From contig CAMPDV010000009.1 of the NCBI GenBank assembly GCA_946699065.1, positions 682,001 through 746,000 of the forward strand: 64,000 nt of DNA, given 5' to 3'. Of this stretch, positions 23,681-64,000 are shown one piece after another. The DNA comes from Loxodes magnus (taxonomy: Eukaryota; Ciliophora; Karyorelictea; Loxodida; Loxodidae). Below the pieces are notes generated by a model. It was not told the DNA's origin, made no database searches, and worked only from the letters and a program-made list of their open reading frames with translations. How positions within the stretch are numbered: the stretch's first letter is position 1; each line of letters begins with the position of its first letter. Made by a program: the position numbers and the translations under genes.

Positions 23681-24128
23681 AACTTTAAAATTTTGAAAAG
23701 TTATTAACCATTAATTTTCAAAAATATTTGTTATGAAAAAATTTTCTATTTAAATGATTAGTATTAAATTTTTTAAGAAATTTAGGGAAAATTAATTATT
23801 TATTTAAAAATCTTATCTAGAATTAAAGTTTTAGAACGCTCTATATAAGCTGTTTATCTATAATACTGCTTATATTTATTCTATTAAACTTAAAAAATAA
23901 TTATTCAATATTTTTGGAATCCTAAAAAAATCAAATTTAAATAAATTAAAAAATAGATTGCAAATTTTGTATTAAATTACATAAGAAGCCTTTATTGCTT
24001 TAATGCTACCTATTTATTTTTATAAAATATATAGAACTACAAATCTAAATTAGTTGATAACTCCGTTACTCAAGGAAGCATACAGTATAAAAATAGAATT
24101 TCTATCCTAAATTAAATTAATGAAATAG
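23681..24128. other. AT-rich spacer
   Basis: 450 bases following the kinase repeat arm. No ORF or repeat was recognised. It may contain the 3' end of the minus-strand retroelement to the right; no clear tail is visible. Confidence 0.4.
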
Positions 24129-25042
24129 TCAGGAATATTTATTAAAAAACCTTTTTACACCAGTTGCTGCTTTTCGGCAGGTTATCGATTTTCCTTTCGG
24201 TGAGTTATAATAGTCAAAATGACTTGGGTCGTCTAACAGTATGCTTCGCATGGAGACGTAGTCTTCTGGTACGAGGTAAAATCTGTCTAAGGGTGAAATT
24301 TTCCTCTTGTATATTCTCCCGCTAGAATCACAGTAGATGCGATTTTGTATTCTTCTTAAATTTTGTATCTTAATCACTTACTGCTCCTGATAGGTTTAAA
24401 ATCTCCAGTAGTTTCTCTTTTTCAACAAAATTTTTGCATTGTCTTTAGAGGTGCCAAGCACTGCCACATAGGTAGCATTATTTCTGAGAATTGACTTACT
24501 GGTGTTTTGCGGGAGAAGGAGAATTAGGTTAAGAATGCTCATTCTCTTCTAGTTCTACCATTTCAGGAGCTATTATTTGCTGTTATAGCTTTTCTTGGGC
24601 TTTGTCTGACTTCTCGAGATGCTCCGTTAGCTATTATCTAAGGTCTTTCACTTCATCTCTAAGTCCCTGAACTTCTTTCTCATAGTGGGTCTGGAGTTTC
24701 TAGTTTAGAGCCAGCCCGTTGTTAGATAGTTTCATAGCATATTCAGTTTGGGCTTTGAGCCTTCCCACCTCCTGGTTAAGTTCGGAAATTATCATTGTTA
24801 CTACTTCAGATTGTTCTTGTTACTCTTACTTAGCCGTTTAGAATTCCCTGACCTCTGATTTATTATTATATTTTTTTCTTAGGTTTTTCAGCGGTCGGAG
24901 GGGTATCTAGTTAAGTATAAGGGTGCTTAAAGGAAGGCTTGAAGGCTGCTTGCTACTAGTGTTAGGTTGTAGCTTGCTCGGCTTATTCAATTTTCATCTC
25001 TACCTTTGTCAAGTTGGTGAATGCATTCCTTTAGCCTTCCAT
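24129..25042 (-). pseudogene. ORF1-type (coiled coil + CCHC zinc knuckle) retroelement gene, frameshifted copy E1
   Basis: Starts at ATG 25040-25042 (MEGQRNAFTNLTK), preceded by CTTAAAAA as in other family members. It has a Gln-rich N-terminal part (QQQAAFKPSFKHPYTQLD), a coiled coil (LNQEVGRLKAQTEYAMKLSN, VKDLRQQLTEHLEKS), then the zinc knuckle CYLCGSAWHLQRQC (CX2CX4HX4C) and the family's C-terminal motif RIYCDSSGRIYKRK. A run of seven A near 24865 shifts the frame by one, and a second shift lies between the knuckle and the C-terminal motif, so at least three segments are needed. The last segment ends at UGA 24129-24131. The protein resembles non-LTR ORF1 or Gag nucleic-acid-binding proteins. 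GC content is clearly higher than the flanks. No tail or target-site duplication was identified. Confidence 0.8.
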
Positions 25043-26370
25043 TTTTTAAGAATTTCTATCTTAAATTAAAAATTACAATAAAATAAATCGTATAATTAAA
25101 AAATTATTATATTAAGTTACTTAAAGTTTGAAATTGTGTAATAATAGAAATACAATTTTGACATTAAATTTCTAAAATATTTCCTTTAAATTCAAATAAC
25201 ATGCGAATTCTTGAATATAAAATATTAAAAAATATTTCGGAGACAAAAGAGATAGGAGAAAATTCCAAATAAAAAGAAAAATTGTAGGGATAACTAATAT
25301 TAAATAAGAAGCTGGAAATTAATGTTAGAATCTATCGAATAAATTAAGTGAATTTTTATAAATCAGTTTAGGCAATTAGATTAAAAAATTTAATAAGATT
25401 GAGATTTATATGAAGTTGTAAATGGTTCAAACATATAAAAAGAAGCATTTTCGAAAAAAGAAATCGAATAGTTTATTTTCAATGAGATTCGAAAATATAT
25501 AAATTCATAATTCAAAGAAAATAAGATATAAAAATAAGAAAATATATTAAAAAAAGAATAAGCATTTCTATAATTTAATCTTAAAGCATTTAAAACCAAA
25601 TTAAATAGATAAATTTAATTAAAAAATTTAGAAAAAAAATTTTTTGCTTTAATATCAATTAAATTTTAATTTTTTCCGTTGAATAATAGTTTATTCTTAA
25701 TTATTCTCTGCTTTACGCAAACTTAATATTTTCATTTTTTAAGTTCCTATGTAAATAGCCATTCTTCATCACTAATTAAGAAAAATGCATATAATTATTT
25801 ATTTTTTAGTTTATTCTAATCTAAAATAATTTCTTTGAAGCTATATAAAATCCTCTATTTTATTTAAATAAATGTTGTACATTTAAAAGCATATTTTTTA
25901 ACTTTATGTATTATAAATAAACTTAATATCATTACCATCAAAAATACAAAAAAATAAGAGTTTATACTTAATTATATAAATTTTTTTCCATATATTTAAG
26001 TAGTCTTTTAAATATAATATTGAAAGACTTTTATGAGAAATTATTCCAACATTAATTATTTTAAATTTACACCATTTATTAAAAGTTTAAAATATTTAAG
26101 ATTTAAAATTATTTCTCTAATTTTAACTCTCATACATCTTATTTCTTTAATGTCTAGCATTTTGAAAAATTATTAGAGAAAATATCACAAACCAACATTC
26201 AGAAAAAAATAAAGTTTTTTATATGTATATTTAGAGAAAATAAAAAATCTCTCAATAACTATAAAAATTACAATAATATTTATTTTTAATAGTGACATGT
26301 AATTAAAAAGTTTATATTCAATTTTCAGACTTCTCAATTTATCATAAGATTCATTAAATACTACCATTTT
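25043..26370. other. AT-rich region without recognisable genes
   Basis: Extremely AT-rich, with long A and T runs. Both strands were read; no zinc-knuckle, kinase or RT pieces appear. Confidence 0.5.
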
Positions 26371-26374
26371 TGTA

Positions 26375-27090
26375 AGTGGATAGGCACTTTGACATTTTAT
26401 AAGCTGAAGATATCACCAATGATTGCTTTCAGATCACAAATGCATTTTCTGCTTAAAAATCCATTTGTGTTATTCAGAGTTTTATTTAGAACTCTTCATG
26501 TTCTTCGTTACTCTCTTATCCGAAGTTTTCTAAACCTTAATATTGACAATTAAAATGTGATTATTTGTCTCACAGTACAGTAGTTTCTGGGCTATTTTTC
26601 CTTTAACTCTTTTAAAATACTTTTAACAAGTTATTCTATTTTCATTCCCAAAATTTAATTCATGTTTTTCATCTTTTTTAAATTTTGATCATTAGTTTTA
26701 TTTTTTGTTTTCTATAATCCTGCTTTTTTTGATTAAATATTTATGATAATTATTAGAGTAGTTATTATTCTACTACTAAATTATTTAGATTAGCTATCGA
26801 GGAAATACTAATAAAATCCTTATTTGAGTCTTCAATGGTGATTATTAACTCTCTAATATTTTTCCTTAATCGTAAGATGTTTCTTAATAATCATAGATTA
26901 TTATTTTCATTTTATCTAGCTAATTTTAGAATTTTTGATCAGTTACATTCTAAGGTCTTTATTTCATCAGACCCGATAATAACTTTACCTTCAAATAAAA
27001 AATTTTATTCCCCTTATTGTTTTTGAATTTTCTATATTTCTTTCGCCACTGTTCTTCTTAATTTTCTAAGCAAGTTCTTTGGAAACTAGC
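26375..27090 (-). pseudogene. Heavily decayed ORF1-type retroelement gene, copy E17
   Basis: Read on the minus strand, a degenerate zinc knuckle remains (YCETNNHILIVN near 26600, with its first and last Cys lost). About 130 nt later comes the family's C-terminal pattern (LNNTNGFLSRKCICDL), aligned with RLYCNQHGNIYRRK of copy E4. Upstream sequence is Lys/Gln/Asn-rich as in other members. Frames change several times. Borders are estimates; no tail was found. Confidence 0.5.
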
Positions 27091-27221
27091 AGAATATTCC
27101 ATTTTTTTTGGATTATTTATGTATATTTTAGTTTTTATTATCGTAACATGTTATTCGTAATTTTAATTTAGTTTTTTAATTTAAAAAATTCATATGAAAT
27201 GAAATATGTTGCTATATAAGT

Positions 27222-27600
27222 GTATAAATAAATAAGATTATAGAACTCATAGCACCTCAATGATGCGCAGCTCTTTAATAAAGATTTTTAAAGTAAAAAA
27301 AAATTATTTTCTGAAGTCTTCCACAGTGCTAGTATTCCTTTATGAGTCTTGTCTTCTATAGGTCGTTATCGGAATGCTTTCCTAAGAGACCTCAACACCT
27401 GGAATCTTTCATCATAAATATTACTTGTTGCCTCTTGAGTCTTGTCTTCTCTACATTCCTATCAAGATTTTTGCTCGGTTCTTTGCTCAAGGAGTACTTC
27501 CTAGTACCTGAGCAAAAAGTCAATTTCAGATGGAAGATTGTTCCTCCTATTTATTTTTATCTATATGTAATGGGTGTGAAAAAATATTTAGTAAAGTAGA
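27222..27600 (-). mobile_element. 3' end of an ORF1-type element with hairpin and (TTTA)n tail, copy E2
   Basis: On the minus strand, a short coding-like stretch (HKGILALWKTSE) leads into a terminal hairpin. Its outer arms are GCTC/GAAC on the plus strand at 27270-27273 and 27243-27246. A TTTATTTA tail follows at about 27224-27234. The hairpin matches those at 49566, 56653, 62582 and 63452. The 5' limit is uncertain: two partly repeated segments with GAAGACAAGACTCA lie at 27330-27430, and sequence right of 27600 is featureless. Probably a 5'-truncated copy. Confidence 0.6.
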
Positions 27601-37117: not shown

Positions 37118-37177
37118 ATTAAAGAAATATTTTATTAGCCTTTAAATTTTAATTTTAATTAAGATCCATATAAAAAA

Positions 37178-38035
37178 ATGGAGTCTTAAAATCTTGTTCC
37201 CGGCTTTTTATTGAGCAAAAAAGAGAAAAAAGCTCTAGAGAAAAAGCAGGCATAAAAAAAATATCAAGAGTCTTCTTCTCCCCACTTACAAAACTAATAA
37301 AGAACCTAATAACTATAATAAACACCTCCTAAAGTAATAAAAAGAAAAGAATCTAATATAATAACAGGAAAAGAACTTCCATCAAAGATAATTAAAAAGG
37401 AAATCAATATTTAACAGTTAGTATTTGAAATATCCAATCTCTAGGAAGAGATTAAAGTGCTTAAGTTGGAAAATTAAGAACTAAAAAACTTATTATCGCT
37501 TGGATAAGATAACTTAGAGATTAGAATTATTAATTAAGAAAGGGAACTCCAAGCATATTAGAACATTTAAACTGAACATAGATAAGAAACAGCAAGGCTT
37601 GGAAATATCGTATAAAAACAAGAGTTGGAGTTTATTAAGCAAAACAATATTAGCACAAACATAACTAATTAGACAAATTAGATGGAATTAGAATAAAAAG
37701 AGGTTATAAATCGAAAACCAATCAGATAAGTAAGGAAGAAATGCTACTACTGTAATAGTAAGTGACATTTGTACAAAAATTGCTAAAAATTTTAGAATTT
37801 CAAGAAAAAATTTTGGCGTAAAGAATAAGAAAAATACTAGAGGCTCTATTGCAACTAGCATGGAAATATTTACAGAAGAAAATGATGTGAAGTACCTTTT
37901 GAAATAATAAGAACAAGAAATCAAAGAAACTGAGAAGACCTTAGTGAAGATAATTTCATTAGAAAGTCAAGAATGATGAGAAGTGCTGCTGATAAAACAA
38001 CTTATTTTAAACGGTGTCCAGATTGGCACTGTTGA
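37178..38035 (+). CDS. Retroelement ORF1 protein with CCHC zinc knuckle, copy E4 (open frame)
   Basis: Starts at ATG 37178 after a run of A. It has a Lys/Gln-rich N-terminus, a coiled coil (LVFEISNLQEEIKVLKLENQ), and the knuckle C189-YY-C192-NSKW-H197-LYKN-C202, in which Trp is a UGA codon. The C-terminal motif RLYCNQHGNIYRRK follows. No frameshift is needed. An in-frame UGA at 37931 could end it at 251 residues; reading it as Trp continues to UGA 38033-38035 (285 residues), which better matches the other copies. A degenerate TTTAATTTCATTATCATTAA tail comes directly after, near 38038-38058. The protein is expected to bind its RNA like ORF1p or Gag nucleocapsids. One of three copies with a largely undamaged frame. 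Confidence 0.78.
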
Positions 38036-38058
38036 ACATTTTAATTTCATTATCATTA

Positions 38059-38788: not shown

Positions 38789-39447
38789 ATGGAAAATTTT
38801 AATTTAGCAAAGGTTATTAATGAGCTCTATCTGCGAACTTAAGATCTAACTAATAGTAGAGAATTTTTAGAATCTAAAAACTCTGTACTACAATTTGAAT
38901 TGGTTCTGACCACATCCCTGTAGAAATTTATGGAAAAATTTCATAAACAGAATAGATCGTAAAGGAAATTTAAAATTCCAGAAACTTTAAATCAGAAAAA
39001 TTCTAATAATTCAACGATCCAATGGATATAAAGCAATAACCCTACAACATAAAGATTTTCTATCAAAAAATAATGATATGTTGATATTGCAAGCGGCCAG
39101 TACACAAAATACGGAGTTGTTACCAATTTTAATGAAAATAAAAGAGAATAATATGAATATAATGTTAAAATATATTAAATAAACTACACAATTAAAAGTT
39201 TACTTTATACATAAAAATGCTACAACCAAATAAAGAAGGTTCCTATATCTAATAAGCAGTGAATTAATTCAATAGTAAACTATTGGGATTTAACTTATAG
39301 GAAAAACTAAAGAAAAATAATCTTAAAATCATCAAAAATCATGACAGTGAAGATCCAAATAAGTTAAATAAACAATTTTAATTAAAATTAAATTCTTTGA
39401 TTTGTGGCAAACCAAATAAAAGAAATGCCACATTAATCTATTATGAT
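38789..39447 (+). pseudogene. ORF1-type retroelement, near full-length but frameshifted, copy E5
   Basis: Starts at ATG 38789 (MENFNLAKVINELYLRTQDL). A coiled coil follows, and after a frame change at about 39075 comes the intact zinc knuckle CWYCKRPVHKIRSC. The C-terminal part contains LYIKMLQPNKEG and DSEDPNK, aligned with copy E6. The 3' end has a 7-bp stem-loop (39403-39409 with 39426-39432, 16-nt loop) followed by a degenerate ATT tail near 39432-39447. It belongs to the same subfamily as E6. The element starts right at its ATG, with no longer leader apparent. Confidence 0.72.
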
Positions 39448-40334
39448 ATAACTTATCTAGATATTTTAGTTATAAACTAATTTATTAATTATATTCTAAA
39501 ATGACTGAAAATGATAACTATCTTTAAAAAGATTTATACTTTATATTTAATTTAAATTAAGTATATGCTTATTATATAAAGCTAAACGAAAGATAAATAC
39601 AATAAAATATAAATGATTATTTTATAGTAGTAATAATTGATTTTCTATAAAGTTTCTTGATAATCTTATAGATATTCTTACTTTACAGTATTTAAATATA
39701 AATACATTTATCATAATTATTACTTTAATTTAATTCTTGCGTTATATAATCATTATCAATGCTTATATTGTATTTAAAATTATCTCTCAACTAAATAAAA
39801 ACTATTACTTTAAATCTGCATTTTTATATCCATTAATTCAAATACTAAGTTCAAATCCATATAGTTATTTTACTTTTACATTTTTAAGCAATAAAAAGCA
39901 TAAATATGCAAGACTTCAACTTAAATTAAGAAAAGATAAATTATAATGATTATAATTAAAATATTTAAAGTATAATTAAACTTTTAATTATATGATTCAT
40001 TTGTATCTAAATTAACTATATAACTTAATTTAAAATTAAATCCTTTTATTTTAATCATTAATTAAATTTATTAAATAAAACTATTTTATTGGAAAATGAG
40101 AATCTATACTATATAAAATATTATAGAAGATAAGTTTGCCATATATCATATAGGTATATTATTAATTTAAAACATACTAATTATTTAGATTTAAAATTAA
40201 CTATGTATATTTAATTGTTTTAAAGTATTTCAGTAATAATTATTCTAATATTAACATTTATGTAAAAAACATATTGAAAATTAAATTTGTCAAAAATCAT
40301 TATACTTTTAATTTATGAAAAATGTAAGATCAAT
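39448..40334. other. AT-rich spacer
   Basis: No recognised coding sequence. A short standard-code ORF at 39737-39946 has no homolog among the families here and a non-protein-like composition. Confidence 0.45.
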
Positions 40335-42570: not shown

Positions 42571-43240
42571 ACTTAACTTAATTGTATTATAAAAATTCTT
42601 GCTAATTCTCTTCAGTTTATTTAGCCCTCTTGTCTTTTAATCTTTTATGATCAAAACATTATTTTATTAGATATTAGGAAGAATTGTAATATCAACATCT
42701 TTTTATCTTCTATTTTAAAAAAAATTCATTAATTTTTTAAATATTCTTGTTACCTCAGTTATTTTTAATTCTATTTAATTCTATTTAATCAATTATTTAA
42801 TTAGTTGGAATATCAATCTTAATTTATTCAGCAATCATTAAAATTTCTTCTTCTTAGTGTTTTTAGGTTTTACAACACAACTTTTCTTCTGTTAAGACCT
42901 TATTTAAAAAAAATCACTTCTGTAAGTATGTTTTTTTCAAGCACAGTTGTTAAATATGCGTCATCAGTTCTCTTATTTTATCAGAAAGATTACAAATTAC
43001 AGCATCTTATTTACTAAGAGTTTTTCTTAGTTTTGCCGTATTGGCCATATACAAATTCATTTTCTTGTTTATAATTGAAGAGCTTACCTAGTTTTCTTAT
43101 ATTTTTTTATCTAACATGATGATGAAGCTTTAGGCGACTTTTGCTTTTCTCTTCTAGCCTTGATTTATTAAATTTTGAAGCTTTGATGTTCTCCTTTTTG
43201 ACAGTTTTTTACCTAAATTAATAATAAAAATAATTTTTTG
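42571..43240 (-). pseudogene. ORF1-type retroelement gene, decayed copy E14
   Basis: On the minus strand, a helical stretch ANTAKLRKTLSKQDAV... SDKIRELMTHIQQL aligns with copy E15 at 62.9-63.1 kb (same DNA word pattern over 400 bp). Near 42685 a mutated knuckle reads CWYYNSSQYLIKQC (second Cys and His both Tyr). The upstream part contains the shared GGAGAACATCAAAGC at about 43190. The element ends close to E13, which is on the other strand. Confidence 0.58.
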
Positions 43241-44046
43241 CTATTAAATAAAATTCTGGTTTTAGCTGGAAGGCATATTCTTTTATTTTAAGCAAAGTAT
43301 ATTATATTTAATTAAAATATTAACAGTATTAATAATTTTGTTTAGCGTACTTATTTAGCCAGCTAATAAAATTAAAACAAACACACAAAATAGTAAACAA
43401 TTATTTAGAGAGATTAAAAGTTATTAAATAAAGAACTAATTTAAAATTAGTTAAATTTATGGGATATCAAATTAAATGAAAATTATATTAAGAAAAAAAT
43501 TAAATTAGTATTAATCAATATCATACTATAATAATAAAAAAACACTTTAGTAAAAATATATTATATATTAAAAACAGTTCTTAATTTAAAAAACTAAGAT
43601 ATTTAATACACTTTAGAGATAAAAGGAAATATAACAGTAAATCTATTTAAAAATAAAGATTTTCATTTTAATCTTTATCCTCATATTTTTAATAAGTTTC
43701 TTATATTTTAGAGTTAGGAGCTTTACAAATATTCTATTTAATAAAAGACTATTTATTATAGCTTTAAGATAATTACTTTTGATTTATTTTTATACTTATT
43801 TTTGTTTTCTTATTTGAAGAATTATTTATTTAAGGCTAAATTTAATTGAATTTTGATACCTTTTATTTTAATTATGCAAGTTTCTAACTAAATTGTGCTA
43901 AAATATTGCAAACATTTTTTTGCCAGAGAATCAGATTAAATACTTAGAATTTATTTTACTAGCTTTAGTAAATTATTAGTATAGAATAATAGAATGTAAC
44001 TTTCAGCATGAAATATTGTTATGTGATCCTAGACATATTATATAAA
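43241..44046. other. AT-rich spacer with a short block shared with 63.35-63.43 kb
   Basis: The interval 43260-43330 (GCTGGAAGGCATATTC, AATATTAACAGTATTAA) recurs next to E15 at about 63360-63428, so this is shared flank or 5' sequence of the E14/E15 element type. The remainder is AT-rich without features. Confidence 0.5.
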
Positions 44047-44949: not shown

Positions 44950-45935
44950 AAATAATTTAATAATAGCAAGTAAAGTACTCTAATTCTTATAATTATATTA
45001 AAGAAGTTTTAAATTTAGAATTTTCTTGCTTGAGTCTAGCTGTTATATCCATGAATCTTGTTCATTTTGTCTTTTTTCTCACACCTTATTTAGTTCTTGA
45101 TCCTACTCCAAGTTATTCAGGTTCGAGATTCAATTTTTTTCTATAAACTTCCCCATTTTCTCTGCATCAAATTTAATTTTTCTTTCTCCTTATTGATATT
45201 TGGACTTATCTTTTCCAAGATTTATCCTTTGATTTTCTGGAAAGCTGCACATTGTCTTCATAGGTGTCATGAATTCTTGCAATAATAACACAGTTTTCTC
45301 ACCTTTGGTACTTGTTGCATTTCAAATTTAGAGGTCTTTTCTATTTCCATCCTATCGGAATTTAGATTCTACTCCAGTGGATTCTGCTGGCTTTGGAGGT
45401 TTTTCTGGCTTTATAATATGTTTTCGATCTGTTGACTCTAATCTTGAATTCTCTGTACTTAGGAGTCCTCCAAACTGAATTACTCTCGCTAGTAATTCCA
45501 AAGAGCGTCAAGTTCCCTCTCCTAGTTTGCTATCCTGAGGTCTAGGGTTTCTTGTAACCCATGTTGGATTTGCTCGGCTAGCTTCTCGTTCTCCTTCCTT
45601 AGCTTTCTAACCTCTTCCTGGAGGTTAAGTACCACTTTGATGAGATACTCCATGCTCATCTGGTCAGAAGGATTAAATTCAGAAACCTCCTGATGTCGAG
45701 CTGACTTCAGTTGCTTCCTAGGTTTTTCTTACGATGTAGGTGTTTCCACATGTGTTTTTTTCTGGTTTTATATTCGTTCCTCATAGTTGGTTTATTTCCC
45801 GGATAACTAAGGTTAATAAGTAAAAGGTTAGGGTTAAGAGTAAAAAGACTATCGGGAGATAGCTTCCGGTTTCCTCTCCTACTACGAGGAGGTGGTGTAG
45901 AAACTCTTTCTGAAGCTTTATTCCATTTTTTTCTT
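44950..45935 (-). mobile_element. ORF1-only non-LTR element E11, close to full length
   Basis: The element begins with an A run directly before its ATG (plus strand ..CATTTTTTTCTTAT, 45924-45937). On its strand it ends near a degenerate CTATTATTAAATTATT tail (about 44950-44970). Length is about 0.98 kb, similar to E8 (844 bp). No target-site duplication was found by eye. Confidence 0.6.
45117..45926 (-). CDS. Retroelement ORF1 protein with CCHC zinc knuckle, copy E11 (open frame)
   Basis: Starts at ATG 45924-45926 with MEQSFRKSFYTTSS, comparable to MEQSIRL and MEQNIRL of E9 and E8. A coiled coil spans about residues 100-190 (EYLIKVVLNLQEEVRKLRKE, NEKLAEQIQHGLQETL). The zinc knuckle is C213-YY-C216-KNSW-H221-LWRQ-C226 with two UGA-encoded Trp. 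A candidate stop UGA at 45117-45119 gives 269 residues; coding-like sequence continues beyond and the C-terminal GxYxKK pattern is blurred, so the end is uncertain. GC content is higher than the flanks, suggesting a relatively young copy. Expected role: RNA binding and chaperone for retrotransposition, by analogy with LINE ORF1p. Confidence 0.75.
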
Positions 45936-46604: not shown

Positions 46605-47576
46605 TTAAAAATGGTGGATGGTTTCAACAAAAAAAAACATAAAAATAACCTCTTAAGAGTAAGAGAGGAAGGTCAATTCTTGCAATCACTTCGCTTAAAA
46701 AAATAATCTTCTTAACAAATTATACACTAACTTCCCGGTAAATAGAAAAAAGATAATAGGAAAGCTCCATACTATACCGAGACTCCATGATCAGAGGAGA
46801 AGTCTAGAAAATAGGTTAAGAACATAATGCACATCAAGAAGTCACGGAATTCAATACTGAAAAATAGATTAGCTATGAACAGTTAATCAAAGAGGTGCTA
46901 AACCTCCAGGAAGTGATGAAAAGACTAAAAAGAACAACTAAAAATTAGAAGGAATTTTAAGCAAACAAGAAGAGTTTGATTCAAGATATATATTCCAGGA
47001 AAAAAATTTAAATGCTTTCTGAAGCTTATCATAAGATAAAAACAATCAATATTAAATCTTGCAATAGAAGCAGACAGAAATTAGAGATAAAATAGTGAAA
47101 ACAGAAGAAAGTTAGCAAAAATTACAACTTCAAATAGAGATAAGAGAAAAAAAAAGTGACCCAAATGATGAAGAAGAAAAATTATCAGAAAACCGTAAAG
47201 AAAACAGAGGAAAATAAAGATTAAGAAAAAATGCTTCTGTTGTGGAAACTCATGGCATCTATATCGGAAATGTTAGAAATTTTAGCAGAAAAAAATGAAA
47301 TATTGAAAACGATAGAAAAGAACAAGAAGAAGCCAGATTAAACTGAATTTATTTCAGTCCAAGTGGAGAACTTTATAAATTCAAGAAAGATGTGATAAGA
47401 ACAAGACAGGAAAGGAGAAGAAGGAAAATATGGAAAAACCCGATTTCCCAATCTCGCTAAAATTGGAGGTACCAAGCACTTTTATTTAACAGTATGGCAT
47501 ATGAACTGCAGTCTTCCTGAAAGGATAGTAATACCTCATAAAGGAAAATTAAAATTCATTATTATTATTATTATTA
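46605..47576 (+). mobile_element. ORF1-only non-LTR element E7 with (ATT)n tail, frameshifted
   Basis: Begins ATTAAAAATGGTGG (ATG 46611). It has a Lys-rich N-terminal part, then a coiled coil in a second frame (EQLIKEVLNLQEVMKRLK, compare E11 EYLIKVVLNLQEEVRKLR). The zinc knuckle CFCCGNSWHLYRKC is at about 47230-47275, and IYFSPSGELYKFK is the C-terminal motif. GAGGTA/TACCTC arms and a TCCTGAAAGGA hairpin precede a clean tail of six ATT units at 47558-47576. At least two frameshifts at A runs make the ORF non-functional as read. Confidence 0.75.
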
Positions 47577-49620: not shown

Positions 49621-50885
49621 AAAAAAACTCTAAAATCTTGATATCATAGCATAATAAATTAACGTGTCTTCACAATTTTTTGATTAGCCACTAGTTTAAA
49701 TGCTCAATACTGATAAATAAATATATCTTGAAAAATGGAGTCATAACAGATTGCTCTCTTAGGATTACTAAGCAGTGCTCACATATCACTTCAAGTCATA
49801 TTTCAAGTCAAATAGTCTCCACAATTGAAGATCATTCCGTTAGAAGGTTCAAGATTAGCCAAAGCAATGAAAGACATAGTCAATTATTGATATTTAATTT
49901 CTCAACCTCTGATGAAGTTTAGCTATTTTTTCTTCATCCCTCGATTGATGATTTAAGTTCCTTCAGAAATTCCACACACTAAAACTTAGGAATCTCTATC
50001 CTAAAATTTTAAAATTATATAATAAAATAATCAGTAAACAAGAAATTGCTTGATTTAGAAGTGGTTACAAAGTAATTAAAAAGTAACTATATTATTTAAA
50101 ATATTTAATTTTATACTATTTAAATTAAAATATCTTTCATTGCTGTATCTCCTTCATTTTATTAATTTAAACAAAAATATATCTAATTTTTATTATTTCA
50201 GCTATTTAATTATTAATTATCAATATAGCATTTAAAAGCCACAGCTTTAAATTTTAAGTTATTTTTTCACTATTTTAATTGAAATTTTGCTTATTTTGAT
50301 AATCTCAAAAATAAAGAAAAACTTTAATTAATCTAAATTTATTATTATTTTAAATGTTAGTAACTCAATGAATATCGAAGAACACAATAAAACAATATTA
50401 AGAATAAGTAAGAATTATATATCTAATATCAAACTAAAACCATTTTATAAAATATTTCTAAGATTTAGTAAAGATATTGTAATACATTTAAATTAAAATT
50501 CAACATTAATTCTATTTTAATTTCAATTAAACTTTTATATAAATGAATATAATACAAAAACCTTATCACAGAAATATTCTAAAATTTAACTTTGTAAGTC
50601 AACATTTTAAAATTTTCAAGTTAAAGTTTGAATTTATAAAATAAAGAAAGTTAATTAATAATTAATTGCTTTATTCATATTTAAAATAATTATTCTATTA
50701 AAAATTAATTAAAATTTATAAAACTTAAAATTTTAATGCCAATTTTTTAAGTATTAAATCACTAGATACATTATAATTAGATGAAGCATTAAAGTTTATG
50801 AGATTAAAATGAATCTATAAATTAGCTGGCTTTTATTTTATTATGCTTTATTTAATTATTTTAATTATAAAAGTCAAAAGTTTCT
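49621..50885. other. Spacer between SINE S2 and kinase copy C
   Basis: AT-rich. A standard-code ORF at 49728-49922 reads MKNGVITDCSLRITKQC and has slightly higher GC than its surroundings, but there is no match to any family in the window. The part 50700-50885 is kinase 3' flank partly shared with copy B. Confidence 0.4.
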
Positions 50886-53444
50886 TCAAGACTAAGGTTG
50901 TGCTTTAAAATAAGAATTCCTCTGCATTTTTTATATTAAATATTAAAGTACTTGCTTTAACTATTGTCTTTCTCTTTCTTACAACTATTCATTAAATAGT
51001 TCTTCAAGCATACCTTTTTCAATTAACTACATATTATATATCTATTAATCAGATTTTTATTTGTTTTACTCATAAATTTCTATTAATGTATTAAACTTCA
51101 TAAGAATTTCAATAATTTCTCTTTTAAATTGTTAATCAAACTAGTAATATTTCTAAATTCTTTAATCGTTTAAAGATGATTTCTTGAAAATAATACTTTA
51201 ATATTACTAAGAATACTACTTGCATTAAATTAGTATTTTATAAGTTTCTCTTATCCAAGGTTTTAAAGATTCTCTATCTTATTTTGATATTTAAGAAAAA
51301 TCCTGAGCACCTTAAGTTAATCTAAAAATATTTGTTATTATTTCTTAGCACTTTTAAAATGAATAGTAGAATATTTTTAGGGCATAATTTAAGTTATCAT
51401 TAAAATTTGTATCTAATTTTTAGAGTTAAACCATATACTTAGCTATTGTCATTCTTCTTTTACAGGTTCAGTTTTCCTACTTTATATTCTAAATAATAAG
51501 CTAAATGTTTTGTTAAGGAATATTAAAATTATTTTATTATTATTGTTATCCTTATAATTGCTTTGAAGATACTTATTCATAATTTGGCTAAGATAACTAT
51601 TCTCTTTAATAGCAATTATTTTAACATTAAGTAACTTATTATTTTTAGTTCTAGTTAAGCTATTGATTTTATTAATTTCCTTGATTTTCAAAATATCAAT
51701 TTACGTAGTTAATAAATTTATTTTATTATTTTTATAGTTATTCAATTATTAACTATTAAGAATCTATTAAACCTTTTAATTATTACTCTAAATAATTAGA
51801 GTTAAAATTTATCAATTCTTAAAATTCATTTTCATTGAGTACTTATCCAACATAAACTTAAGTAGTTTCTTACTTTAGCTTTTTTAAATATTATTCTCTT
51901 TTGTTTAATTCCTAAATAATTTACTCGTATGGAACAATGTAATGCATTGTTTTCTTTCTTATTTATTTCGAAATTTCAATGTATGATTTTTCAATGAACT
52001 AATCTATTTGATTCTAAAGCTAATTTTTTTAAATCTCATATTAATTTTAATACTACTTAAATTCCTTTATTTTAGGATCTATTAAAGCCTATTATTACTA
52101 GTGAGATTTTATAATTTATATTATTATTTAATTATTCTCTAACTCCGCAAGAGATTTTTAAGTTCAAACCAAGCAATTAACTTGCTTACATTATATAATC
52201 ATATTTAAATTTAACTACTTTTAACAACATATATGACATAGATTATGTTGGCATTATAATAGTTTTGGAATGTTATTGTTCAAATCAAATTTATGCTCAC
52301 ACCCGTTACATTTTATTTAATCTTTTAAATTAAAATTATCTATTTTTTTAAATACTTATACACACTCTTGAAAATCCCTTTATATGTTTAATTGTTCTTC
52401 AGATTTATAATTGGATACATTTATGCTAAATTCAAACTTCTTTATTTATTTCTATTATTAATCATTTTAATATTAACTAAATAATTCCCTTTGCTAATTC
52501 TCAAGTTATTTCTAAGTTTAATAAGCTTATTCATTACTTTGAGGATTCAATTTATCTCAGACTATCTAAAAGTTTTTTATTTATTCCTAATATTAATTAT
52601 TATTCATTTAAAATCCTTATTATATTCAAGGATGATTATATATTTCGTATATATCTACTCTATTATTCTAATCTACTACTAGAATCTTTTATAAAACATC
52701 TTTAGCTCCTTATGATATTTCTAATATTTCTCAAGGAAGTTTATTTTAAAACATCCTTTTAAGACTTTAAACTTATGTAGCATTATAAGGGAGAATTCCT
52801 GTTAACATTTCGTATATAATTACTCCATAAGATCATAAATCTGCTTTGAAATCGTATTCTTATTCCAGCAATATTTCAGGAGCCGTATACAAAGAAGTTC
52901 CACACATAGTAGAAGCTAAATCTCCTTTCTTTAACTTTCTAGACAACTTTAAACCTGTCAATTTCAATATTGGTTAATTTTCAAAATAGTGTATCATTAT
53001 ATTATCAGGCTTTATATTCCTATGAAGAATTCTGAATTCTCTTAAATGTTTGAGTCCAGTAAGAATTTGAGCTGCAAATATTTAAACTTATTATTCCTAA
53101 AATCTATTATTTTATTATTATTTGCTAAAAGATCTTAGATCTCCTCCATTGCAGTACTCCATTGCTAAATAAAAATTGTTAGCTGTTTAGATAACCTCAA
53201 AGAGTTGTATAATGTTAATATGCTAAATTTTGGCTAGGTTGTCTTTTTCTTAATCTAGTCTTATTTACTATTATTAATTCAGTTTGCTTTTACTTATTTA
53301 CTTTATAGCAACAAATAATTTTTAGTTATTAGGTTGGTTACTACTGTAAGCTAAATAGACGGATCCAAACTATCCAGAGCTCAATATTTTATCTACTAAA
53401 TAATCTCCTATCTTCTTCTAGCTTGGTTATTATGCATAAGCCAT
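50886..53444 (-). CDS. ULK/ATG1-like pseudokinase, copy C
   Basis: From ATG 53442-53444 ([20 protein letters not shown]) to UGA 50886-50888, a multiple of three giving 852 residues. The fold is conserved, but key residues are changed. The glycine loop is SSGQFG (first Gly to Ser), HRD has become HRN (HRNIKPDN), and the DLG metal motif reads GLK (LKLTGLKLS). The ATP lysine (VAIK), [26 protein letters not shown] and HPWIQ remain. The Asn/Gln-rich linker has grown to about 350 residues. Loss of both catalytic Asp residues means no phosphotransfer. The frame is kept, so it may act as a regulatory pseudokinase, or be a young pseudogene. Start region and loops are closest to copy B, but DLRSFSKQ matches copy A. 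Confidence 0.75.
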
Positions 53445-55106
53445 TTAATTTTATAAATAATTAAATTTTAAAGAATTTATTAATTAATTTATTAAAATAA
53501 ATTAAAATGGAGATAGTTATTTAGGATTTATTAGTTAGTTTATTTGCGATATTAGTTTAGATTTAAAAGTTTTTATTTATTAAAAATGTTTATTATAAAT
53601 GCTTAAAATATATTAGTATTTAAATTACTATTTAATCTAAATTAAAAATTATTAATTCAAATACGTAAATCAAATAAATAAATTTAGTTCATGTCAATAT
53701 TAATGACATTGAAACAAACTTTATCTATTCAGGAATTCACCATTGAAAACACCTTTTATATTTTTTTCCATTAATGAAACACATACTAAAGAATAGTTTG
53801 TACCTGTTATAGTACATGGATTTCGGTTTTATTATAAAAGTGTTAACGAGAGAGGAGGTGTCTATATCTTGGCTAAAGAGAAATTAAACTCTACTCCTTT
53901 TATTTAAGAGACAGATGGAGACCTAGCTCAGATTTTGCACGATAAAACTTGACGAAAAACTCTTCAATTCCTGCTACATACTAGACAACAGCAGAACAAT
54001 AAATATGAAAGATGAAGCTTATGACATTCTCAAGAAAATAGCCAAAGTATTTTACTATAATGCTTACATCCTCCTTGATGACTTCAATGCACTACTAGAA
54101 GAATTTGGTGCAAATCTCTTGAAAACTACGATAAAAATACACGAATAAAACAGTTTGACTATAGAATGACTTGTAGATTATCAATAAGTTTATATCTAAT
54201 GCATTCATTCATAGAGCTAATCATTAATATTACTGTAATGGCTACATATTGGAAACCCAATACTTGAATATTGATTAATTTAATAATTTCTATGCCCACT
54301 ATGATCAACCAATCACGGATTGTATACCTATATCTGTGACTCTAGTTTACAATGCAACCACAAATGTTCCAAAATAACAGCCATTACTCTATAAAATCGA
54401 TAATCTACTTGATCCAAAGGACAGATAAAATTACTAAAATCAGTTTTGAGGAAGTTTTATTTGTTTTTTAACTGTATATTAAGACAAATTAGACTCATAA
54501 AATAGTTTCATCATGAACTTACTTAAGAATATTGCAATGAACAATATAGGAGTAGTCAAATAAAATACTAATTACAATACATTTCTTTTTATTATTTTTG
54601 AAATAAATAGCTCGAAAAGAGCAAATTAGGAGTACAAGAAACTGCTTTTTATGCAAGGAAGAATCAATCAAGTGGTAATAGAAGCTCATTCTTCAGCTAG
54701 AAAACTTAGAAACAAATATATATAATCTTATTGGAAGTGGAAAAAGCTAAGGCTAAATTTAAGTTTCTCAAACTCAATAGAAACCAACGAAAGATGCTCT
54801 GCTAAGCGAAAAATTTCTAAATCCTAAAATAAGGAACTAAATGAATTAAAAAAATCTCTAGGAATCGTTTATTGATAATTGAGAAGTTTTTGTTCTAAAA
54901 TACATAAAAATATTACATAGAAATAAGTCGCTCAGTAATAGAGATACTTAACTTATCAATTACCCATTCTCTCATTTACAAAATTTTGAACTTTTCCAAT
55001 TTTAAGAAATCCAAGAAATCTTTGAGCATATTTCAAGCGGCAAGGTAGCTGAGCTATATAGTATAAAGGGTAAACTCATCAAGTATGTATGAGAAGAGAT
55101 ACAATT

Positions 55107-55117
55107 AATAATATATT
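55107..55117 (+). repeat. Target-site duplication of element E6, left copy
   Basis: AATAATATATT, repeated at 55734-55744 on the other side of E6. Between them lies the element with its tail; outside them LINE-A coding sequence resumes. Confidence 0.65.
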
Positions 55118-55733
55118 GCTTTATAGTAATAATAATAATCTATTTATGTGATTTCACCTTTATTTGGCTAATCACAAATCAAGAGTTTAATGTTAAATAA
55201 AATAAACTTCATATTTGCTGGGATCTTGCTTATCATAAGTCCTGAGGATTTTTAATTAATTTTTTCTGAGAGTTTCCGATGGGTCTATTCCTATTCATTT
55301 CTTATTAAATTCATTAATTGAATGCTGTATATTTGGAGGTTCTTTGTTTAGTTGGAGTATTTTTTTCCGATAGAGTAAACCTTCACTTGTGCAGTATATT
55401 CTAAATATATCTTACATTTATTTGATATTAATCTATTTTATTTTTATTAAAATTGGGAGCAATTTCTACTTTATTTTCTGAACGCTTGCAATATCAGCAT
55501 ATCATTATTTTTCTATAGGGAATATATTTTGTTACAGGTTGTTATTCTATTTCCATTGGAGCATTTTTTATTAAGGATTGCTCTGATTTACACATTTTCG
55601 AGTTTATAATTTCTCTTACTATTTGTTCTGTCTGTAAAATTCTACCCTAAATTTATTGCAAGTATAGGTTTAAATCTAATTCCTATCGTAGTGTTGAATT
55701 TTCCGATTTTAGAGTTTCCATAGAGTTTAAATC
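55118..55733 (-). mobile_element. ORF1-only non-LTR element E6, inserted in LINE-A
   Basis: Minus-strand element, about 616 bp. It encodes METLKSENSTLRQELDLNLY, a degenerate knuckle CWYCKRSENKVEIA (His and last Cys lost) and the C-terminal IYCTSEGLLYRKK in a shifted frame. The 3' end has a 7-bp stem-loop (plus strand 55147-55153 with 55170-55176) and an (ATT)n tail seen as TAATAATAATAAT at 55126-55138. Its start just upstream of an internal ATG suggests 5' truncation or a short subfamily. It is flanked by AATAATATATT duplications. Confidence 0.75.
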
Positions 55734-55744
55734 AATAATATATT
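55734..55744 (+). repeat. Target-site duplication of element E6, right copy
   Basis: AATAATATATT; LINE-A reverse transcriptase resumes directly downstream. Confidence 0.65.
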
Positions 55745-56279
55745 AAGACTCTAAAGAATTCAATAAGTTGAATAACTTTATCATCATCCCTATTCTTAGG
55801 AAAGATAGTAAGAGCTATTGAAAAAACTGTAGACTATTTTCGCTTATTAATATTATACTGAAAATCTACGACAAAGCTTTAACAGAAATGACTTACAAAA
55901 TTCTTCAAGAACGTAACCTCATACATCCAGTTTAAATGAGATTCCTCAATAAGAGACAAACAGCTCACTAAATATGAAAATTGTAGTGGATTATTTAACT
56001 TGATTAGAGTGAAGAAAAAGACTTAACAAAGATGCTTGCAACTCTTATTGATATCTAGAAGATGTTTGTCAGCATTAAGAGAAGGACACTTTTTTCAACA
56101 TCTTAGGAGATTAAAACTACCCTGAAATTGATACTGACACTAGAATCTTTCTACAATAACTTGAATTATTTTTTTCTCATTGTTGGGTAAATTACTACCA
56201 GTCTTCATTTCAACAATGAAGTTATGTAAAGGAGTTCACACGATCCTGCATTTTAACTCCTTTATTATATATTTATTTA

Positions 56280-56705
56280 TAAAATGGATATTGGCCGCGT
56301 CAGCCAAACTAGTAGGTAATCTGGTGCAGTGTATACTTCATTGAGAGTAATCTCGCACTAGATGCCATCACGGGAAGGGTGAATGAGCTCCGTTGAGACG
56401 TACCTAACTTACCCCAAGGGTTCTCTCTAGTAGTATGAAAGTTTGACTGACGGGCCTCCTAATTACCGACTTAATAACTATCTCTTACTTGGACCTTATT
56501 CAAGAAGACTGAAGCATTTGACTCATTATTTTAGAATAATTTTTAATAAGAAGATTCCCCATTTGGAGAAGCTGACATGACTCATTGAACTTCTAGAATT
56601 TAACAAGAAACATTAGAACATTTTTCTTAATATTTTTTATTAAATATTGAAAGAGCTGCGCTCATGAGGTGCTACACGCTCTACAATCATTTTTATTTAT
56701 TTATG
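56280..56705 (+). repeat. SINE-like element S3, inserted in LINE-A
   Basis: Second close copy of S2 with the same start (AAAATGGATATTGGCCGC), the same internal stem-loops, the hairpin with arms GAGC (56653-56656) and GCTC (56678-56681), and a TTTATTTAT tail. It splits the LINE-A RT: DPAFQLLYY lies just left and DIVIKHLQGRNTQLGI just right, matching continuous LLYYDI..TQLGI of LINE-B. TTTATTAT left and TTATTTAT right may be the target duplication. Confidence 0.8.
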
Positions 56706-57808
56706 ATATAGTAATCAAACATTTGCAGGGAAGAAACACACAACTTGGCATTAATCTGCACAATATGATCTTCGTACGCAGAGTATCGGCAAATGACTTT
56801 ATATTCCTTTCTTTTATGTTTAGAGGATGTAATAAGGTATAGATTAGTATAACAGAGTTTTTCAGTGGATTTTTATATAAATAAACACTAGCAAATGTGA
56901 AAAAATCCAATTTGTTAAAAAAAAGAAGATAAAAAATTGAATTGAACTTGAAACTGGATTTGCGTATTAAATAGAAGAACCAAGGGACTTAACTTGGAGT
57001 TATAATACAAGAAAATTAAATTTGATCACGTTTTTTAAATAAAGGACTTTAAATTATTTGGAATCGGTTAAGAAATATGTTTATACTCTCAGTAGATACA
57101 AGAATGCTATTCCCTGACACTTCAAAATGCTCTGTTTATGCTGCCTAAGGCTGAATACAATGGTCTGATTCCTTGAACTTTATTGAGAGGCTTATAGAGT
57201 ATGAAAGAGAAGATTAAAAAAAATATGCGCAAAATGGTGGGGAAGGTTTTACAATCGCCTATCCATGTCTCCAATGAGGCTTTCTTCATATGCCTTAACT
57301 GACTACCATTTATGCATATAATGGCTAAACACTTTTTCCGATTATACTTCAAAAAATGGAAAGAAGATAGGACTTATCCAGAATCAGATATAGGAAGACT
57401 CTTTCTATGTAAATGAAACTAAAAATTTTTGTATTTTTAGTAGGTAAAAAGATACTTTAGTTTTATGGAATTAATAATGACGATCAAATCATGATTTCTA
57501 ACTAGCTATCTATTGATAAATTTATCGAATATATAATAAGAAACAAATTTTATTAAGAACAACTCTACGCTATAGAGACATCCACACTGTATAGATATCC
57601 AGATAACAACTTATAGGATTCCGGAAATTTTCTGTTATAAATTATACTAAAATTACAAGTAATAAAGGAAAGAAATAATTTCATTCTTTAAATTACGTAT
57701 TTAATCTTATAATTTCCAATATGATTTATATACGCGTCATTATACTGTGGAAAACGTGCTATATACATGCGGAAGAATTCATTTAATCATATCTTCGAAT
57801 GTGTTTAT

Positions 57809-57822
57809 AGATTCACTTAGAA
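57809..57822 (+). repeat. Target-site duplication of element E9, left copy
   Basis: AGATTCACTTAGAA, repeated as AGACTCACTTAGAA at 59515-59528 with one mismatch. It is part of the LINE-A C-terminal coding sequence (FECVYRFT). Confidence 0.85.
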
Positions 57823-58032
57823 TTAAAAAAATGGAACAATCTATTCGCCTTTCCAAAAACTTAACTAGAAACGCAAAAAGGAAAGCGGCGAAACAATTAC
57901 TTAAATAACAAAAACTAGAAGAGAAATCGAGCTCCTCATCAGAAGGTAAAATTATGATAGGAACAGCTCAGAAGAATCCAGGTAAGATTGGAGAGAATTC
58001 AGAACTTTTTTTATAGCTCGACTAAATGAAAA

Positions 58033-58048
58033 ATAAAATTTCTGAGTA
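58033..58048 (+). repeat. Target-site duplication of element E8, left copy
   Basis: ATAAAATTTCTGAGTA, identical to 58893-58908. It belongs to the coding sequence of E9 (KISEY). Confidence 0.92.
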
Positions 58049-58060
58049 CTGAAAAAAAAG

Positions 58061-58867
58061 ATGGAGCAGAACATTAGACTAAATAAAAATAAAATAAGAA
58101 ATGCTCGGAAAAAGGCTGCTTAAGTACTTCGATAAAAAGAAAAACAATAAGAAGAATCAAGTTCCGACTCATAAGGTAAAATAATGATCGGAACTTCGCA
58201 AGCTGAGGAATTTAAATCAGATATTTCAGAGGAACTACGACAAAAGATAGAACAAATGTAAAAAATTATATCCTGATACCAAGAAACAATATATAATTAA
58301 GACTTATTAATACGGGAACTTACAACAAACATTGACGTGCAAAATAATGAAATAGAAATCCTTAAGAATCAGCTAATAGAAAACAAGGTAATAACGGAAG
58401 AACAACTTTGAATGTAATAGCAATAAAAATCTTAACGTACATCAAAGATGGAAATTGAAAAAACTTTCACTCCTTTATAAAGTGTTTAAGAACAGAAAGA
58501 AATTAGATATGATAATAACTTAATTAAAAGACTAGAAAATATTGAAAATAAGCTATTTAAAAAACATATTAGTCAAAAGAAGATTAAAAAATAATGTTGA
58601 TATTGCCAATCCAATTACCACTTATTAAGAAGATGCTGAGAATGAAAGAAATTAAATGAAAAGGTATAATAAAGAACATGAAGAGCATTGAATTTTCTAT
58701 GGATAACTCCAACAGGAATATACAAATAAAAACTGTCTATGCGCTCTTTTGAAAGCAATCAGTGGTAACCATCCACATAAAAAAAATGGTCGCGGTATCC
58801 ATCCGAGTCAAAAAAATGGCGGCAGGAACTGGTTGAAAGTCCAGAATATGCCAAAACATTTTTTTAA
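58061..58867 (+). CDS. Retroelement ORF1 protein with CCHC zinc knuckle, element E8 (intact)
   Basis: 268 residues from ATG 58061 (MEQNIRLNKNKIRNARKKAA) to UAA 58865-58867, the last in-frame codon able to end it before the tail; no UGA lies in the final 60 codons. Parts in order: basic N-terminus, EESSSDSQGKIMIGT, coiled coil about 55-150 (ELRQKIEQMQKIISWYQETI, NEIEILKNQLIENK), second helix (LIKRLENIENKLFKK), zinc knuckle C179-WY-C182-QSNY-H187-LLRR-C192, then LWITPTGIYKQK and a basic tail (KKWSRYPSESKKWRQEL). Trp in CWYC and WEWKK are UGA codons. The plan matches nucleic-acid-binding ORF1/Gag proteins. It is the best type sequence for the family, whose members lie at 24-64 kb. No frameshift was found when read line by line. 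Confidence 0.85.
58766..58826 (+). repeat. Two-unit ~30-bp tandem repeat in E8 3' region
   Basis: Units begin ACCATCCACATAAAAAAAAT and ATCCATCCGAGTCAAAAAAA and each ends TGGnnGC-like. The same dimer occurs in E9 at 59389-59448. It overlaps the end of the ORF and precedes the CTGG/CCAG stem. Confidence 0.7.
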
Positions 58868-58892
58868 CATTTATTTTACTATTATTATTATT

Positions 58893-58908
58893 ATAAAATT
58901 TCTGAGTA
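58893..58908 (+). repeat. Target-site duplication of element E8, right copy
   Basis: ATAAAATTTCTGAGTA; E9 coding sequence resumes here. Confidence 0.92.
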
Positions 58909-59514
58909 TCAAGAAATAATTTACAAACAAGGAGAAAAAATCAGAGAATTAATACTTCATAGATGATCAAAATAATGAATTGTTAATAATTAGACGTCAA
59001 TTAATCCAGAATAATTTAGAAACGGAATAATAATTATACTAATAGTCTCAAACGAACCTTAAACAAAATCAAGACATGAGCATTGAAAAGGAATTAATTT
59101 AAAAAGATGTTGCAGAAAAACAGAAAGATGAAAATATTGAATAAAATTTAATAAAACGAATAAATCAGCTTGAAAAAAAAGTATTTTAGAAAAAGCCTTT
59201 GAAAAGTAAACCAAACAATGTTGGTATTGCAAGTCAAGATGGCATTTATTGAAAAATTGTGGTGGCTGAAAATAAATATAAATAAAAGAACAAATAAGTA
59301 CGTGAAAGACTCTTAATAGGCTATGAATTACTGAAACCGGAGTCTATAAAGAAAAATATTTGCTGGAAACTCGGAAGATTTTTAGTGGTACCTCCCACGT
59401 AAAAAACTCGGTCGTGGTATCCATCCACGTTAAAAAAATGGCAGCAAGAAACTGGTTGAGATTCCAGGTATTGCAAGACTTTTAAACTTTAAGTTCATTA
59501 TTATTATTATTATT

Positions 59515-59528
59515 AGACTCACTTAGAA
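59515..59528 (+). repeat. Target-site duplication of element E9, right copy
   Basis: AGACTCACTTAGAA; LINE-A C-terminal sequence resumes downstream (LSDKFPGKNLEKL). Confidence 0.85.
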
Positions 59529-62574: not shown

Positions 62575-63340
62575 GATTAAAGTGCGCGTAGCAGAACAAT
62601 GGTGCGCAGCACTATAAAAAGTCAATTGAATACAAATTCTTCCTCCAAGATCCCTTGTGGTAATAAATATTCCTCTATTATTTCGTCAATCTCTTGTTAT
62701 TCTTCTTCTTCCTTTTACTACAGTATTTCACTATTTATTATTCTTCTTTTTACTATTCCCTCACTATAAGCTTTTTGAATTTTATCTTATATTTCCATTT
62801 CATTATTATTTCTATATCTTTTTCTTTTTATTCAGTTTTTTTATATTCAAATGAATTATCCTTTTCCAAATAATTTAATTAATTAGTCACGATATCAGTT
62901 TTAATCTTCAGCAATCATTGGAGTTTATTCTACTCAGTAGGTTAAAGATTAACGCCACAACTGTTCTTCTGTTAGGACTTTATTTTGAACAAGTTACTTC
63001 CATAAATATATCGTTTTTTAGAAAAAGGTGTTTAATATTTGTCATTAGTTCTTTTATTCTATCTGAAAGAGAGCAAATTACAACATCCTACTTGCTGAAA
63101 GTTTTCTTCAATTTCTTCTATTATTAATATACGATTTCATTTCTTTGTTCTAATATTTAAGAGCTTACCTAGTTTTCTTATTGTGTTTGCCGTGATATGA
63201 TGACGAAGGTTCAGTTGATTTTTGCTTTTCTCTTCTAGTCTAATTTATTTCCTAATATTTCTTAATTAAGTTTTTGATGCTTTGATGTTCTCCGTTTTTC
63301 CAGTTTTTTTAATCTAATAATTTAAATAGCTTTTTCTATT
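62575..63340 (-). mobile_element. ORF1-type element with covarying 3' hairpin, copy E15
   Basis: Reads leftwards. N-terminal sequence ENGEHQSIKNLIKKYQEINQ and EKQKSTEPSSSYHGK (compare EESSSDSQGK of E8) is followed by a helical region homologous to E14 (SLSDRIKELMTNIKHLFLK), a Gln/Glu-rich stretch and a C-terminus EYLLPQGILEEEFVFN. Immediately after comes the 3' hairpin with outer arms GTGC (62609-62612 on the minus strand) and GCAC (62582-62585), then a T-rich tail. Several frame changes make it a decayed copy. No zinc knuckle was recognised. Confidence 0.65.
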
Positions 63341-63424
63341 AAATGAAAATTCTGCTTAAGCTGGAAGGCCGTTTCTTATATTTTAGTTAAGTATAATTAT
63401 ATTTAATTTAAAATATTAACAGTA

Positions 63425-64000
63425 TTAAATAAATAAATCAATTTGATTATAGAACGCGTAGCACCTCGTTGGTGCGCAGCTCTTTTCATATCTCAATATA
63501 TGTCCGTTTCTTCAAGTAAGCCCTCAGGTAATAGAAATTCTTTCTTATTAGTTACATATCTTCCTCATTTTCCTCTACATTATCTCTTGTTCTTCTGTCT
63601 TCTATCTATCTACGCTTTATTAGATCCTTATTGCAAGCTTAATTTATTTTTTCTTGCATATCTTACAAATTTTCATTTATAATTTTTTTCTTCTTGATCA
63701 AGTTTTTATACACTCATAAAAATTATCCTTTTCCTGCTCTATAGTCTTTTCCTATTTCCTTTTTTATTAAATTTTCTTTTCTATATATCCTCTTTTCCTT
63801 TTTTCTAATATATCTTTGATACAATCTTTTATTATCAAGTCAGCTTTAGCTCTTTTTTACTCTTCTTAGGTTCTAATGAATTTCTCGAATTTCGCCGTAC
63901 CTCATATTATATCAAATAGTTCCATTCCTTATCTCTTTATTCCTATTGCTCTAAGATTTCAAATACATTATTATTTCTTTCTTTGTACTCTGGACAGTTT
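63425..64000 (-). mobile_element. ORF1-type element with 3' hairpin and (TTTA)n tail, copy E16 (runs off the window)
   Basis: The minus-strand frame from the right edge reads NCPEYKERNNNVFEILEQQE, a Lys-rich region, and ends in EFLLPEGLLEETDIYWDMKR, closely similar to the E15 end. The hairpin with arms GCTC (63479-63482) and GAAC (63452-63455) and a TTTATTTATTTA tail (about 63428-63440) follow. The frame stays open for about 170 codons, so this copy is better preserved than E15. The 5' part lies outside the window. Confidence 0.68.

Follow-up and report, generated by a model that had tools for sequence, protein, structure and literature searches.

A family of solo-ORF1-like retroelements, very probably moved in trans, in the ciliate Loxodes magnus

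Retroelements that encode the product of a first open reading frame (ORF1) and no copying enzyme have been described in ciliates and in mammals. Seven solo-ORF1 elements, A-G, were reported from Paramecium germline DNA in 2017 and judged likely to be mobilised in trans (PMC5405496). The HAL1 (half-L1) elements of mammals, which derive from L1, lack reverse transcriptase (RT), encode ORF1p only and are non-autonomous (PMC5753468). The element considered here is an 844-bp insertion at positions 58049-58892 of a 64,000-nt stretch of DNA (the window; contig C9:682001-746000) from an assembly of Loxodes magnus that by size and genetic code fits the somatic assembly of 706 Mbp (PMC11441545, as available in part). 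It is very probably a non-autonomous retrotransposon without long terminal repeats (LTRs), of the solo-ORF1 kind, moved in trans by a resident long interspersed nuclear element (LINE). It carries ORF1 without an apurinic/apyrimidinic endonuclease (APE) or RT, has a zinc finger, is dispersed in many copies and ends in a simple repeat. Judged by the available parts of the two papers, it shares with the Paramecium elements a ciliate host, the presence of ORF1 only, a zinc finger and the 3′ simple repeat that some of them possess, and with HAL1 the lack of RT, the coding of ORF1p only and the non-autonomous character.

The 844-bp element and its recent spread

The insertion is bordered on either side by exact 16-nt direct repeats, ATAAAATTTCTGAGTA, and consists of a 12-nt leader, one long frame for a coiled coil and a zinc knuckle, and an (ATT)n tail (Table 1). 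All of these parts had been named in the original prediction, made from the letters of the window, as had the absence of an endonuclease and RT, and all were recovered. A DNA search of the genome (7843 contigs, 705,730,643 bp in all) for the element's family, sub1, gave 1792 first-look candidates, of which the best 40 were scored and all 40 were fetched. Besides the window copy, these comprise 39 copies that match the 844-bp query at 98-99% over positions 7-842 or more. In 39 of the 40 the insert lies between exact repeats of 11-23 nt, that of L026 being only 7 nt, and the repeats differ from locus to locus, except that L030-L032 share one flank and represent one locus assembled three times. 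The core has no indel in 37 copies, the remaining three being this same locus, with one indel column. The majority-consensus core (ends excluded) is matched fully by seven of the 40, and the mean pairwise difference is 0.4%; the window copy, with 12 differences from the consensus, has the highest number among them.

Searches that allowed up to 3 mismatches gave 173 genome-wide matches to a 45-nt motif from the 5′ end and 172 to a 46-nt motif from the 3′ end, with none for the reversed-pattern controls. Since the two numbers are nearly equal, most copies look full length, which agrees with the earlier claim that the 5′ end is kept. Among the 100 of 172 3′-motif places that were listed, 81 lie within sub1 protein matches covering at least 239 of 282 residues. 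The other 19 comprise 12 that are near full length and 7 that are partial or rearranged (one ended by the contig end), and the DNA fetched for these 19 loci contains no RT stretch. The 844-bp family has spread recently and is largely full length; a successful family, rather than a chance truncation, had been proposed for it, and this is supported.

The junctions were tabulated for 39 of the 51 copies offered (the 40 and 11 of the 19 further loci), the exclusions being 7 with an unrecognised motif, 2 with short repeats (7 and 4 nt) and 3 whose flank was already counted. The duplication is 14-16 nt long in 25 of the 39 insertions, with a range of 10-23 nt. The leader, an A-run whose length varies, consists of A alone in 15 of the 39, the others having extra bases before it or mixed in. 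When the flanks were rejoined with one copy of the duplication, and the 40 best candidates were scored for such a query, uninterrupted sites were matched elsewhere for six of seven insertions, at 95-100% for the best match and at 100% for two of the six; the seventh has no listed match. These empty sites are mainly paralogous and not proven alleles, because most of the targets are themselves repeats. A chance origin of the 16-bp repeats is rejected by the 11-23-nt repeats of 39 of the 40 copies together with these uninterrupted sites. Variable-length duplications, a 3′ simple repeat and empty sites, all seen in this family, are what products of target-primed reverse transcription are expected to have. 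Gag, too, typically has CCHC knuckles, so that a Gag-only derivative of an LTR element might be considered, as might a DNA transposon or eliminated sequence. The ends, however, are an A-run and (ATT)n, and no repeat common to both was found on reading, no dedicated search having been run; the duplication length also varies as in target-primed reverse transcription, and this explanation is hardly credible.

The ORF1 frame and the 3′ end

In NCBI code 27, TAA, TAG and TGA can all be read as residues. Because this code leaves any frame open, an open frame of 268 codons is trivial by itself, and its intactness therefore rested on conservation of the frame between copies and on in-frame purifying selection between families. 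Of the undamaged 268-codon ORF that had been claimed, the conserved frame and its selection stand; its openness is no proof, and the TAA at codon 269, which seems to have been read as its end, encodes Gln. When 114 codons were compared without gaps with those of the diverged relative L040, the proportion of synonymous differences (pS) is 0.81 and that of nonsynonymous differences (pN) is 0.32 in frame; for the other two frames, pS is 0.28 and 0.35, and pN 0.46 and 0.45, respectively. The C-terminal half compared with the family sub2 gives a pS of 0.60 and a pN of 0.35. Gapped, protein-guided codon alignments of the relatives at 37 kb and 45 kb in the window lean towards the frame as well and are not the main evidence. 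By these codon comparisons, the ORF1 frame is under purifying selection between families.

An AlphaFold2 model built from six shallow sequences predicts long helices at residues 2-34, 52-133 and 141-169, with the knuckle at residues 179-192; the model is weak, with a mean predicted local distance difference test score (pLDDT) of 62.9 and a predicted template modelling score of 0.23. The helices and the CX2CX4HX4C site at 58595 are in keeping with the coiled coil and CCHC knuckle of the original prediction. Such sites occur seven times in the six frames of the window and not once in any of 20 first-order Markov controls. Pfam did not detect the knuckle, and gave no match over its cut-off for the protein (two weak ones, best E 0.008). 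The frame continues for about 75-80 codons beyond the knuckle into the conserved 3′ end. Homology to solved structures was rejected, by sequence (one match, E 0.51) and by fold (28 matches to the weak query model, none with E <= 0.001), and so were viral relatives, as none of the 15 pattern matches in viral contigs was confirmed.

The 3′ end of sub1 would fold into a two-part hairpin, GGCA-GGAA-CTGG, loop TTGAAAGT, CCAG-AATA-TGCC. In single-sequence folds of sub1, sub2 and sub3, an inner stem of 4 bp with an 8-nt loop is set on an outer stem; sub3 has one inner pair changed from T-A to A-T. The form recurs in a fourth family (in L061), whose inner stem has 5 bp. Only 4 of 500 shuffles fold as well as the native sub1 hairpin, and 16 of 500 as well as that of sub2. 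The predicted two-part form is thus found again in four families. The fourth is itself an ORF1-only family with a (TAA)n tail, lying at L061 1-800, antisense and downstream of a LINE B copy. A tRNA origin was rejected, as the window gave no tRNA with ARAGORN under the bacterial code, and an Rfam origin likewise, the three weak matches all falling under the gathering scores.

Neighbouring elements and resident LINEs

The 844-bp element is not inserted in unique DNA but is nested in an older relative of the sub2 family. The host is itself bounded by a 15-nt duplication in which one position is mismatched (57808-57822 and 59514-59528), and its frame shifts several times. Sub2 is a separate family, in which all 40 scored matches run without interruption from mid-ORF1 to the tail, these being 96-97% alike except for the window copy. 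The host in turn appears to have inserted into the LINE-B-like copy directly upstream. Recurrence of the layout had been claimed for the window, and three further ORF1-only elements, of 932, 881 and 928 bp, were found independently; they are complete and bounded by duplications, and begin with an A-run and ATGGA. The 37-kb element has 142 scored genome-wide matches, itself included (from 16238 first-look candidates), and an in-frame TGA at codon 286, near its 3′ end. The protein identities of the window copies to themselves are 91% and 89% in the match tables; the identities given there are hence too low, apparently because reassigned codons lower the score.

Table 1. Features of the 844-bp element and of related elements in the window
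Feature	Position	Strand	Remarks
5′ target-site duplication ATAAAATTTCTGAGTA	58033..58048	+	exact 16-nt repeat
Leader CTGAAAAAAAAG	58049..58060	+	A-rich; a variable A-run in the other copies
ORF1 frame, code 27	58061..58867	+	ATG at 58061; frame conservation, selection, structure prediction
CX2CX4HX4C zinc knuckle CWYCQSNYHLLRRC	58595..58636	+	pattern scan
Conserved 3′ end with predicted two-part hairpin	58752..58892	+	single-sequence folds
(ATT)n tail	58880..58892	+	TAT/ATT repeat, ends at 58892
3′ target-site duplication	58893..58908	+	exact 16-nt repeat
Older frame-broken relative, family sub2, host of the 844-bp element	57823..59513	+	net ~831 bp
Decayed LINE-B-like APE-RT copy	54165..57404	+	stretches 54165-54740, 54805-55104, 55762-56283, 57135-57404
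ORF1-only element, 932 bp	24117..25048	-	22-nt duplication, 1 mismatch; knuckle at 24477
ORF1-only element, 881 bp	37174..38054	+	duplication ~14-16 nt; knuckle at 37742
ORF1-only element, 928 bp	45003..45930	-	exact 19-nt duplication; knuckle at 45290
Further ORF1-only relative	47211..47575	+	knuckle and (ATT)6 tail; no convincing duplication found
Relative with knuckle and 3′ hairpin	39058..39460	+	3′ end LINE-C-like; no convincing duplication found

On reading, three older stretches with a broken frame look like solo-ORF1 elements; they lie at 25900-27300, 42600-43450 and 62600-63450, all on the minus strand, and the first also has DNA likeness to the host copy. The segment 49191-49617 is duplicated at 56278-56704 (88-98% in pieces), the second copy being within the decayed LINE-B-like span, and 31287-32889 and 50832-53022 are 87-92% alike in pieces of 281-300 nt.

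Duplications and the lack of APE-RT would also fit retrocopies (processed pseudogenes), made by LINEs, of an ordinary host gene for a zinc-knuckle protein. Against this, the tail is (ATT)n and not poly(A), diverged families have the same layout (three complete elements besides the host and the 844-bp element in one window), and a similar 3′ hairpin is predicted in four families. Such an origin is very improbable.

A further alternative is of the HAL1 type, in which the family would be a recent internal deletion of a still-existing LINE with the same ORF1 and ends, with selection acting on the LINE. In mammals HAL1 arose several times, according to the available part of the account (PMC5753468). 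In other Loxodes families, ends are indeed common to solo elements and LINEs. The first ~70 bp of the 45-kb element are homologous to the first ~67 bp of LINE A (score 72, as against 23 for the best of 300 shuffles), a 5.5-kb element with a (TTTA)n tail and a 3′ hairpin. A scripted search for duplications of LINE A found none, and nothing is concluded from it. A 3′ hairpin resembling that of LINE C is present in the elements at 39 kb, at 55 kb and in L059, as judged on reading an alignment of four sequences that includes one copy of LINE C (L060); the L059 hairpin has two mismatched pairs in the aligned register. These links, which concern families other than sub1, suggest the use of LINE ends by solo elements. 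For LINE B, one RT copy was read (L061) and 137 RT matches were scored, its 5′ part and ORF1 not being seen, and one copy (in L003) has an (ATT)n tail. Regularly spaced LINE RT matches, ~2504 or 2532 bp apart and resembling a tandem array of part of a LINE, occur on contigs C5131 and C20.

Other evidence speaks against the HAL1-type origin. No LINE with the sub1 ORF1 or the sub1 3′ end was present among the LINE copies examined, and the knuckle of the 844-bp element, CWYCQSNYHLLRRC, is unlike those of LINE A, CCLCKVKGHTDQQC, and LINE C, CENCQAVGHSTYQC; the earlier description of the element as half of a LINE is therefore not upheld. The 5′ motifs are not in excess of the 3′ motifs, and the 40 scored sub2 matches are uninterrupted from ORF1 to tail. 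Among 138 sub1 protein matches and 137 LINE-B RT matches only one pair lies less than 12 kb apart (on C202, ~1.9 kb), and the sub1 copy of that pair (L019) has its own 18-nt duplication. Copies continuing into APE-RT between the frame and the tail had been named as a finding that would overturn the original prediction. None has APE-RT between ORF1 and the 3′ end among the copies listed for sub1 and sub2, nor APE-RT interrupting ORF1 among those listed for the 37-kb family. For the copies seen, a simple 5′-truncated or internally deleted LINE was rejected, and the HAL1-type explanation as a whole is unlikely.

Probable transposition in trans and comparison with known systems

Since the family has spread recently without a copying enzyme, the machinery for copying must be borrowed, and LINE RTs, which are abundant in the genome, are possible suppliers in trans. 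In the favoured reading of a solo-ORF1 element moved by a resident LINE, an internal promoter would probably drive transcription, translation of the RNA would yield an RNA-binding protein with a coiled coil and a zinc knuckle, and this ORF1p would probably coat its own RNA in cis. The APE-RT of the LINE, supplied in trans, would recognise the (AUU)n tail together with the structure at the 3′ end and nick an AT-rich target, and the RNA would then be copied by target-primed reverse transcription. This would leave an (ATT)n tail, duplications mostly of 14-16 nt and, at the 5′ junction, extra bases that vary. A more tentative proposal is that a long-lived lineage without RT evolved as ORF1-only, its protein being kept for RNA binding in cis and its ends being swapped with LINEs, with a different enzyme for each family; this is possible, though rather doubtful.

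Several points weigh against the favoured reading. The likeness of the 40 copies is partly a selection effect, because the best-scoring ones were taken, and a LINE with the sub1 3′ end was sought in the 100 listed 3′-motif places only, the other 72 not being listed. Of 500 shuffles of the sub3 hairpin, 263 fold as well, so that its stability does not exceed theirs, and RNAalifold on a MAFFT alignment did not recover the hairpin, which was read from single-sequence folds. Beyond codon 207 the ORF1 frame lacks an in-frame UGA and continues into the (TAT)n tail, read as tyrosines, in 58682-58892 and in the copies alike. Coding selection is weak in the last 45 codons (pS 0.49 versus pN 0.34 against sub2), and residues 226-269, which overlap the conserved 3′ end, have a pLDDT below 50. 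We infer that the last ~130 nt of the element may act mainly as RNA.

For HAL1 it has long been asked why ORF1 stays intact in an element without a polymerase. The several RT-less families of Loxodes provide a natural test of the action of ORF1p in cis and of the 3′ structures that a LINE enzyme reads, since selection on the ORF1 frame is measurable, one family is recent and largely full length, and some have LINE-like ends. SINEs (short interspersed nuclear elements) that depend on LINEs are short, mostly full length and moved in trans, and some have a LINE-like 3′ end. The LINE-C-like 3′ end of the 39-kb, 55-kb and L059 relatives is a trait of this sort; unlike SINEs, the 844-bp element encodes a protein, and purifying selection acts on it. 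Solo-ORF1 families may make up part of the unclassified repeats of Loxodes. The words SINE, solo and non-autonomous are absent from the main text of the Loxodes magnus paper as available (PMC11441545; the supplement was not covered), and in the literature searched, as far as the sources were available, the term solo-ORF1 was found in one paper only (PMC5405496).

As a matter of layout, the comparison with HAL1 made in the original prediction is sound, and the Paramecium elements A-G are the closer precedent, as far as the available text of the two reports goes (PMC5753468, PMC5405496). Set against that part of the Paramecium account, the Loxodes frame extends well past the knuckle into the conserved 3′ end, the tail is (ATT)n, and no LINE with the knuckle type of the element was found (the LINE B ORF1 not being seen); the Paramecium elements come from germline DNA, whereas the Loxodes copies lie in an assembly that fits the somatic genome in size. 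HAL1, as described in the portion consulted, comes from L1, whereas the Loxodes element is 844 bp long, has an (ATT)n tail and a CCHC knuckle in its ORF1, and has no parent LINE that was found. The Loxodes element is set apart by an ORF1 for which no counterpart on a LINE has yet been found, a recent spread, a bias towards full length and apparently modular ends. The kind is already known from the solo-ORF1 elements of Paramecium and from mammalian HAL1, and the Loxodes element is a variant of it.
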